Under the pieces are notes generated by a model. That model was not told the DNA's origin. It searched no databases and saw nothing but the letters and a program-made list of their open reading frames with translations. The position numbers and the translations under genes were made by a program. This document shows, in pieces, positions 39,617 to 44,489 of a DNA stretch of 64,000 nt. Numbering within the stretch: position 1 is the stretch's first letter; each line of letters begins with the position of its first letter. Source of the stretch: Levilactobacillus tongjiangensis (GTDB lineage Bacteria > Bacillota > Bacilli > Lactobacillales > Lactobacillaceae); the NCBI RefSeq assembly GCF_003946345.1, contig NZ_RHNY01000005.1, forward strand, positions 62,001 to 126,000, read 5' to 3'.

Positions 39617-39905
39617 CATAAGATAAATAACGGAGGAAAGAGGAGTAAGTTAACGCAGCCTGCCAGTGAGTTGGGAGTTAGTGCAAACCCAATCAGTGTT
39701 CGCGTTTTCTGAAAAACACTTTCTTAGTTGCTACCTGAACTGCCCCGGGGCATAGTAGGTCTAGCCGTTAACCGGTACGTTACCATCGGTAGAGTATGTT
39801 TGTACTCTAATTGAGCTGGTTTATTTTTGATGATAAACAACTTGGGTGGTACTGCGAAAAGTCTTTTCGTCCCTTGATATAAGGGATGGAAGGACTTTTT
39901 CTTTT
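39617..39905 (+). ncRNA. T-box riboswitch of asnA, asparagine specifier
   Basis: The T-box core TGGGTGGTACTGCG is at 39844-39857 and a terminator follows (AGTCTTTTCGTCCCTT against AAGGGATGGAAGGACT, then T-run). In Stem I, GAAAG (39636-39640) pairs with CTTTC (39719-39723) and AACGC with GCGTT. The 5' loop strand holds AGTA and the 3' strand reads GAA-A-AAC-A, placing AAC (Asn) at 39715-39717 as specifier. The apical loop GTTAGTGCAAACCCAA is typical. Uncharged tRNA-Asn would prevent termination and switch on asnA. Confidence 0.9.
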
Positions 39906-43169: not shown

Positions 43170-43214
43170 ATAATTTCCAGTCCCGTAATGTACTTCTCAT
43201 TCAGCTTAAGACAT

Positions 43215-43249
43215 TGGTTGCGGGAAAACAACACCTGGCTGCGGGAAAA
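43215..43249. repeat. Direct repeat of 14 bp in the ktrB leader
   Basis: TGGTTGCGGGAAAA (43215-43228) and TGGCTGCGGGAAAA (43236-43249) differ at one base and are spaced 21 bp start to start, two helical turns. They lie 46-80 bp upstream of the ktrB ATG, which suggests paired binding sites. Confidence 0.5.
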
Positions 43250-43373
43250 ACTGGAAAACACGATTTTTTTGATAACGGGTGACCGACGTACAAGTCCGAG
43301 TGACCCGAAACCAGCCTGGAAATTCTGCATTTAGCTGTCAAAATAACACCAGGAAAAATAAATATTTTTGTTG

Positions 43374-43396: not shown

Positions 43397-44038
43397 CTAC
43401 TTGCGCGTTAAAATGCTGCTGAAATTCGATTTGGCCTTCCGATGACACCACCCACGCCACCGAGTTAGCCAGCCAGAATTCTGAGTCGCCGAAACCGTCA
43501 GTGTGGCGACCCGTTCATGAACTTCCTTGAAAATGGTGGTTAGAAACACATAACTGGTCGGACTCACACCTACGCGCCGGTAACGAACCGTTGTCTGCTT
43601 CAAACCAATGGCCAATTGGCCTGGGGCCAACATAGCAACACTCAGCGGTAATGATGGCACCTGGCCAACCGTCAAAAGATGTTCCCTAATGAGGCCTGTT
43701 CCCAAAGCTTTTAAATCCAAGCCATCAACACCGGCCCAGTTCAGTAACAGAATGGACTGCCCTGGCGTCACCGTTACCCGTAGCTGCTCTAGCACATCTG
43801 GCTGAGCATCGGCCGTCACCACAATTAAATCCGCCCAGTCACTTAAAGCCTGATAGTCGGTGCCAATCTGAATTTTGAAATGACTCTCAAAAATGCCGGT
43901 GATGATCAACGCGTGTTGCCGATAAAAAGTTGACTGCACGACGTCGTTCGTCAATATCCGGACACAGTCCCCCTGTGCTTGTGCCAGTCCCGCTAACGCT
44001 AATCCTGTATTACCTGCACCAATAATAAATAAATTCAT
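43397..44038 (-). CDS. NAD(P)-binding Rossmann protein, short opine-dehydrogenase-like, T-box controlled
   Basis: A 213-residue protein starting MNLFIIGAGNTGLALAGLAQ (GxGxxG, residues 7-12), then an alternating strand/helix Rossmann domain (LIVVTADAQPDVLEQL, ILLLNWAGVDGLDL). The pattern resembles the N-terminal domain of opine/octopine or ketopantoate-type dehydrogenases. The helical C-terminal substrate domain (another 150 or so residues in opine dehydrogenases) is missing; the last 30 residues are basic and unlike the family. Either a truncated gene or a stand-alone domain. The start at 44038 follows GGGAGG. It is the only gene behind a T-box whose specifier reads AUG, which links it to methionine supply. 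Confidence 0.6.
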   Translation of the reverse strand: MNLFIIGAGNTGLALAGLAQAQGDCVRILTNDVVQSTFYRQHALIITGIFESHFKIQIGTDYQALSDWADLIVVTADAQPDVLEQLRVTVTPGQSILLLNWAGVDGLDLKALGTGLIREHLLTVGQVPSLPLSVAMLAPGQLAIGLKQTTVRYRRVGVSPTSYVFLTTIFKEVHERVATLTVSATQNSGWLTRWRGWCHRKAKSNFSSILTRK

Positions 44039-44056
44039 TCTATTTCCTCCCAACAA

Positions 44057-44338
44057 AAAAAGTCCCAGAACCTACAAACTGTAGATTCTGGGACGACGTA
44101 TCGTGGTACCACCCATTTTTGGTAATCAAAAAGACTACCCTTCGTTTCATGTCATTTAATAACACTAGTAATATATCGGTTACAACCGTTCAAATAGCCC
44201 CTGACACGAACCACTAGAAAGACTCCAGGCTCATCTTCATGATGCTCACCAGGCCGCTTTACACTAAACACGGCTCACTTGACTGGCGGTAATCATTACT
44301 CTTCCCTTCGATGTCTCATTGATATTTAATCAATCTTT
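44057..44338 (-). ncRNA. T-box riboswitch, apparent methionine (AUG) specifier
   Basis: On the minus strand ATGGGTGGTACCACG (near 44116-44101) is the T-box/antiterminator core. It is followed by a perfect terminator, GTCCCAGAATCTAC against GTAGGTTCTGGGAC plus seven T (44058-44095). In Stem I, ATGAT pairs with ATCAT. The 5' loop strand is AAGAGTA, and the 3' strand reads GAA-G-ATG-A, parallel to GAA-A-AAC-A in the asnA T-box. This puts ATG at 44234-44232. A GAU (Asp) reading one base earlier is the alternative. It controls the 43397-44038 gene. Confidence 0.85.
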
Positions 44339-44344
44339 AATAAG

Positions 44345-44372
44345 ATATTAACACAATCTCGTTATGAGTCAA
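44345..44372 (-). promoter_or_regulatory. Promoter of the second T-box transcript
   Basis: Minus strand TTGACT (44367-44372), 16 bp, TAATAT (44345-44350); start near 44338. Confidence 0.6.
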
Positions 44373-44459
44373 TTCATTTTCATTTAATTAATCGGAAAGT
44401 TCCAACTTTTCTAAAGTCGCTCATTGCTAACGCTGTGTGACCAGTCGAAACACTACAAC

Positions 44460-44489
44460 AAAAAAGCCCCCACCGTAAACGGTGAGAGC
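44460..44489 (-). terminator. Terminator of the rplM-rpsI operon
   Basis: On the minus strand GCTCTCACCG pairs with CGGTGGGGGC around TTTA and is followed by six T; 26 bp past the rpsI stop. Confidence 0.85.

Follow-up and report, generated by a model that had tools for sequence, protein, structure and literature searches.

A methionine-type T-box upstream of a putative reduced, NAD(P)-binding derivative of opine dehydrogenases in Levilactobacillus

The specificity of a T-box is a strong clue to the function of the gene behind it. What is controlled, then, by a T-box that appears to respond to methionine and precedes a gene resembling only one half of an enzyme? Such a pair is found in the 64,000-nucleotide stretch of Levilactobacillus tongjiangensis DNA analyzed here (the window), which belongs to a genome of 2.72 Mb in 43 contigs (G000). 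The order on the minus strand is truA, rplM, rpsI, T-box, ORF, ktrB, and ktrA, where the gene names are readings of the translations. The closest relative among the genus genomes examined is Levilactobacillus yonginensis (G031). The answer favored here, and considered probable, is that the T-box responds to methionine and drives a gene for what is left of a methionine-linked opine dehydrogenase, a reduced protein that binds NAD(P) and is probably not catalytic. The locus has the following features.

44345..44372, minus strand: promoter-like site (TTGACT, 16 nt, TG before TAATAT) directly upstream of the T-box, from a pattern scan.
44086..44320, minus strand: T-box leader, Stem I through antiterminator (RF00230, full model 1-219).
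44232..44234, minus strand: specifier codon, read as AUG (Met) within GAA-G-AUG-A from the RF00230 model column; coordinates counted on the sequence.
44102..44114, minus strand: T-box core GGGUGGUACCACG, including the UGGU bulge, from the RF00230 alignment; coordinates counted on the sequence.
44062..44094, minus strand: intrinsic terminator hairpin, then a U-run at 44055-44061.
44045..44051, minus strand: Shine-Dalgarno sequence GGGAGGA, read from the sequence, 6 nt ahead of the ATG at 44038.
43397-44056, minus strand: ORF, 219 aa if counted from the first TTG.
43397..44038, minus strand: gene of the 213-aa protein, starting with the ATG at 44038; predicted to match an opine dehydrogenase of the CENDH type (N-(1-D-carboxyethyl)-L-norvaline dehydrogenase) in its NAD(P)-binding half only, with a short tail.

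The leader was recognized through cmscan of positions 43900-44480 as a match to RF00230 with 87.4 bits (E 1.2e-19). It is missing from a whole-window scan at the gathering score because the Rfam gathering score for RF00230 is 93. Scores below 93 bits are also seen for 21 of the 26 T-box matches in the genome, including those ahead of trpS and asnA. The asnA T-box lies in the same window (39624-39877, plus strand) with the specifier AAC and 83.2 bits, and a default Rfam scan lists neither of the two because both are under the gathering score. The leader in question belongs to the T-box class by its parts: a Stem I with the AGUA/GAA specifier loop, the core, and an antiterminator exclusive with the terminator. 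In the core, the UGGU bulge is expected to pair with the tRNA end. The terminator hairpin consists of 15 pairs followed by seven U (−24.8 kcal/mol, z −8.1), and its 5′ arm overlaps the antiterminator, this arm being common to both structures. The antiterminator stretch by itself folds no better than shuffles (z −0.14). The promoter-like site is weak; it matches at 9 of 12 positions, and 3 such sites were found against 2.4 expected in shuffles. At the other end of the locus, a near-direct repeat TTTTCCCGCArCCA lies upstream of ktrB (window 43200-43265, minus strand). It is largely kept in G000, G031, and a sister species, G032, and may serve in the control of the K+ uptake operon.

The covariance-model alignment places AUG in the specifier column. 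The model column gives the expected codon in nine T-boxes (valS, tyrS, leuS, trpS, asnA, asnS, ileS, argS, and alaS), while in the pheS, thrS, and glyQ T-boxes of G000 the expected codon lies one base 5′ of it. The same shift in the window T-box would give GAU and make it an aspartate T-box. Methionine is chosen over the shifted GAU because of the gene context of T-boxes with the identical string. The T-box of a MetQ-like gene in G000 (L062) shares GAA-G-AUG and has AUG in the model column. The string GAA-G-AUG-A is also found ahead of methionine synthase genes (L071; L014 and L015 in G022 and G027) and an OppA-like gene (L065); in these T-boxes the model inserts one base, and the column reads UGA, which is not an amino acid codon. 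The methionine synthases behind the L071 and L015 T-boxes are of the B12-independent type. The window T-box is most similar to the methionine synthase T-boxes (blastn over ~140 nt, 65-68% identity, E 9.7e-9 to 1.8e-13), and it clusters with them in a T-box tree (support 89/77). An NCBIfam run covered ten proteins downstream of T-boxes, nine of them from G000, and the remaining genes were named by eye. Eight of the ten are above the curated cut-off (methionine synthase twice, pheS, glyQ, thrS, valS, asnA, and trpS). The best models for the MetQ-like and OppA-like proteins are MetQ (205.8 of 374 bits) and OppA (220.9 of 947 bits), both under the cut-off. Judged by this context, the specifier is almost certainly that of methionine. 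The aspartate reading has the precedent of pheS, thrS, and glyQ, but it is highly improbable in view of the shared string, the methionine synthase T-boxes as nearest neighbors, and the nine T-boxes with a testable gene in which the model column is correct.

Two further observations concern the T-boxes of this genome. In the hisS T-box (L064; hisS by eye), the loop is GACAC, in which GAC (Asp) overlaps CAC (His), and the model column reads GAC. Four oligopeptide-binding-like genes on contigs C43 and C23 (L054, L055, L057, and L065) have their own T-box each, with the readings AUC, CGC, unclear, and AUG, respectively; among these, NCBIfam was run on L065 only. The pattern looks as if separate amino acid shortages summon separate peptide binders. 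As for the remaining T-boxes of G000, that of serS is unreadable, and the others precede transporters, methionine genes, or unclear genes.

The 219-aa ORF was used as the query against a family sample of 397 Lactobacillaceae genomes. Nine of them contain matches at E ≤ 1e-3: G000, G031, and seven with weak matches. The best matches outside its own clade are opine dehydrogenase-like genes of G279 (E 4.8e-9) and G257 (E 1.7e-8). In profile-profile comparison, residues 1-144 of the window protein match opine dehydrogenase with a probability of 97.6% and E 2.6e-12. The Rossmann GxGxxG motif is present as G7-A-G-N-T-G12, and A16 is kept, while L19 is not. The identity to full-length enzymes is 23-24%. 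The Octopine_DH domain (PF02317) starts at residue 183-186 in two full-length relatives, which is where the window protein diverges, and no Pfam match to this domain was found in the window protein. Six residues past the NAD domain are invariant in 11 full-length relatives (H198, E236, P282, R288, E292, and D293 in the numbering of L003). All six fall beyond the homologous part of the window protein, and none is found in it. No resemblance to anything was found for its C-terminal tail.

On its own, the window protein is below every Pfam and NCBIfam cut-off, and its best PDB sequence match has an E-value of only 0.42; the assignment to opine dehydrogenases therefore rests on intermediate relatives. 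The closest solved structure to the profiles that include full-length relatives is 1BG6, the CENDH of Arthrobacter. When the window protein is combined with its orthologue and two full-length relatives into one profile, this matches the NAD domain of 1BG6 with E 7.7e-10. The fold of the window protein is thus predicted from sequence to be the Rossmann/NAD domain of CENDH-type opine dehydrogenases. By membership, the protein is not an opine dehydrogenase, the second domain being missing. The original prediction had described a complete T-box with terminator ahead of a 213-residue protein, an AUG specifier, and a resemblance to only the NAD-binding half of opine dehydrogenases, and the computation agrees on all of these, with the frame intact. 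The structural check that it proposed did not help; the AlphaFold model from the window and L. yonginensis proteins (two sequences) has a pLDDT of 32.8, and Foldseek on that model gave no match under E 2.1. Its suggestion of an unrecognized enzyme of methionine or its keto acid survives in the pairing of a methionine T-box with an opine-type Rossmann domain, but not as an enzyme by itself, since the second domain and the six invariant residues are missing.

The missing half was not recovered elsewhere. Between the end of the ORF and ktrB, none of three frames gives the opine dehydrogenase profile a better match than shuffled controls do. A frameshift in the tail was considered, as the frame-2 peptide resembled the start of the opine domain by eye, and was rejected. 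The profile score is −5.4 bits versus +1.1 for the best control (1500 frames from 500 shuffled sequences), and all five interspecies changes past codon 186 are non-synonymous in frame 2, one of them a stop. A PF02317 gene as a complementing partner was found in none of 35 genus genomes, in a search that also gave none in control genomes. No relatives of the window protein were found on phages and plasmids at E 0.01. A class-wide search of 398 genomes with the two orthologues as queries returned only G000 and one full-length enzyme (G889) at E ≤ 1e-5. With a profile, 185 of 395 genomes of the order gave matches at E ≤ 1e-3; because many of these reflected the general NAD motif, the best rows alone were used. 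Two short homologues from other genomes of the order (L078 in G645 and L080 in G577) were set aside as interrupted full-length opine dehydrogenases by eye; the interruption would be either a pseudogene or an assembly error.

The full-length relatives in G257 and G279 suggest a connection of this type of enzyme to methionine. No other match to that enzyme reaches E ≤ 1e-10 in the 397 Lactobacillaceae genomes. The two come from two other genera of the family, in each of which they are single cases among the genomes examined (1/30 and 1/14), and they are 46% identical to each other. Their genes are located in the following operons.

L107 475-4813, minus strand: five-gene ABC importer plus opine dehydrogenase operon of G257, behind a T-box reading AUG.
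L108 626-4958, minus strand: five-gene ABC importer plus opine dehydrogenase operon of G279, behind a T-box reading AUG.

The order in both is T-box, permease, permease, binding protein, ATPase, and the dehydrogenase last. The T-boxes contain GAA-G-AUG-A and score 86.5 and 90.2 bits. The binding protein, one permease, and the ATPase of G257 are nearest to cystine-importer models, under the cut-offs, while the G279 set was named by eye. From the position of the full-length relatives in importer operons under AUG-reading T-boxes, the CENDH-type enzyme in this family is predicted to be methionine-linked, and the operons are candidates for methionine-opine salvage. The two operon T-boxes cluster with each other (93/89), and the G257 and G279 lineages may share one origin. 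The window T-box has nearer kin than these two T-boxes, and for this reason the T-box and the gene may have been joined independently, and the methionine link of the enzyme type may have arisen more than once.

No T-box was found near 15 other opine dehydrogenase loci within 1.5 kb upstream, a reach that would miss the T-boxes of G257 and G279. Upstream regions of 11 further loci were examined, of which ten belong to other families of the order and the last (G889) to another part of the class. A T-box core was found in one of the 11, where it is weak and lies ~6 kb away. Among the ten core-free regions, two extend no further than ~2.6 and 2.2 kb, one of the eleven was read incompletely, and the core pattern finds 23 of 28 known T-box loci. 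The opine dehydrogenase gene of G889 adjoins an amino acid ABC ATPase gene.

The gene of the window is maintained in two species. The L. yonginensis orthologue is 96% identical over 213 residues, and the T-boxes of the two species are 97.0% identical. Both proteins end at the identical codon, and the truncation therefore predates the split of the two species. The 219 codons contain 28 synonymous and 9 non-synonymous changes (dN/dS 0.097), without a stop or gap in either species; 9 of 37 non-synonymous changes compare with a neutral expectation of 75% (p 1.7e-10). For comparison, dN/dS over the main part is 1.5 and 1.9 in the two alternative frames of this strand. The tail past codon 186 has 4 synonymous changes and 1 non-synonymous change by hand count on the alignment (p 0.016). 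The ORF is under purifying selection in both species and does not behave as a pseudogene. Selection is weaker in the first 60 codons (dN/dS 0.30), and on the ORF it is weaker than on ktrB (dN/dS 0.009; Fisher p 0.0015). In the T-box, 8 of 265 positions are changed versus 22 of 371 in two spacers, a difference that is not significant (p 0.13).

Outside these two species the gene was not found. In the sister species G032, 104 nt at the same place match the 3′ part of the T-box at 80% identity (E 1.5e-22), the gene is absent, and no T-box match in the relic reaches E 0.5. The clade of the three species has a support of 100/100. Thirty rpsI loci from the 35 genus genomes were examined, and at the 27 besides the three sister species no such T-box was found up to ~1.5 kb behind rpsI, one locus being shorter (blastn 27/27, cmscan 19/27); the best chance blastn match has E 0.003. 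The five genus genomes without an rpsI locus in the set gave no DNA match to the T-box and no protein match to the ORF. The simplest account would be that the T-box and the gene were joined once, in the ancestor of the three species, between rpsI and ktrB, and then decayed in one of them. The original prediction had offered as an alternative a decayed gene that kept its switch. This does not apply to the window species and L. yonginensis, where selection is purifying, and comes close to the state of G032, where a piece of the T-box is left and the gene is gone. The proposed conservation of gene plus T-box is likewise seen in L. yonginensis, and not in G032 or at the other rpsI loci. A longer gene behind the T-box in relatives, broken in the window, had been named as contrary evidence. 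Two distant longer relatives do stand behind an AUG T-box, but in both cases the gene closes an ABC operon, and that of the window is short without being visibly broken.

Other explanations of the locus can be weighed on this evidence. The protein could do nothing and be a recently truncated pseudogene behind a still-working T-box, as the loss of the catalytic half, the tail without resemblance, the constraint weaker than that of ktrB, and the loss of the gene and most of the T-box in G032 would suggest. The shared last codon makes the truncation older than the split, after which synonymous changes still prevailed, in the tail as well; together with the open frame in both species and the high ratios in the other frames, this makes a pseudogene unlikely. 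Less likely still is a free-standing active oxidoreductase, ketopantoate reductase-like or other, that needs no opine-type second domain. Weak resemblance to ApbA/PanE was found (Pfam E 0.067, NCBIfam E 0.0021), but it is below the curated cut-offs (13.3 of 22.2 bits in Pfam and 17.4 of 141.35 in NCBIfam), and the best matches are opine dehydrogenases. Ketopantoate reductases (ApbA/PanE) also use their C-terminal domain in catalysis, which counts against this explanation. The real target could instead be ktrB-ktrA, with antitermination extending into the operon and K+ uptake rising on methionine shortage. These genes are on the same strand as the ORF, and the scan found no terminator in between. 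However, the 227-bp spacer, with the stretch before ktrB conserved in all three species, suggests that the operon has its own control. Moreover, ktrB lies within reach behind rpsI at 10 of 27 other loci where no T-box was found, and the ORF itself is under selection. This target is very improbable.

The reduced opine dehydrogenase derivative under methionine control is thus preferred, and we infer the following mechanism. With charged tRNA(Met), the terminator would form and transcription would stop before the gene. When methionine is short, uncharged tRNA(Met) would base-pair both to the AUG of Stem I and to the UGGU of the antiterminator, so that the gene would be transcribed. The product would be a CENDH-type opine dehydrogenase derivative that kept the NAD(P)-binding half and lost the catalytic half. 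It most likely binds NAD(P)(H) but would be unable to perform opine chemistry by itself; its role would be that of an accessory or sensor domain, or it would work together with a partner protein.

Methionine T-boxes have been reported from other lactobacilli. As given in the main text of PMC6004538, the L. paracasei regulon consists of metQ1, metQ2, metQ3NP, metE-metF, yxjH-luxS, and yckJK-metC, and the main text of PMC2494555 describes such a regulon in L. plantarum. Like the T-box of the window, these have an ATG specifier; their targets in these texts are methionine transport and synthesis genes. The L. paracasei yckJ-yckK-metC operon, which combines a cystine-type ABC importer with a downstream enzyme gene under a methionine T-box (main text of PMC6004538), is comparable to the G257 and G279 operons. 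Unlike in the window, no opine dehydrogenase or part of it is among these targets, and the two main texts contain no word starting with "dehydrogenase" (PMC6004538, PMC2494555). No paper linking a methionine T-box with an opine dehydrogenase was found among those listed by the literature searches. CENDH has the homologous NAD domain and, according to a review, accepts L-methionine (PMC6033044), but it is a full-length two-domain enzyme, while the window protein is without the second domain. The G257 and G279 operons share with the window the AUG-reading T-box and the homologous NAD domain. They differ in having the full-length enzyme as the last of five genes, whereas the gene of the window stands by itself, is short, and has a T-box that belongs to a different branch.

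Taken more broadly, some lactobacilli may possess a methionine-starvation opine pathway, a tentative proposal. An AUG T-box would control an importer together with a CENDH-type dehydrogenase, and this dehydrogenase would either release methionine from an N-(1-carboxyethyl)-type derivative or store it in that form. In the window lineage, only the NAD half of such an enzyme would have been kept, controlled by a second methionine T-box and dedicated to NAD(P) binding. The proposal predicts methionine as the amino substrate of the full-length enzymes. The locus is a hint that methionine and opine chemistry are connected in a way not yet described, and proteins of the opine dehydrogenase type would take part in the methionine-shortage response in three lineages of one family. 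In one of these lineages, a half-enzyme appears to have been retained under selection, and a decayed stage of the same locus is visible in the sister species G032.
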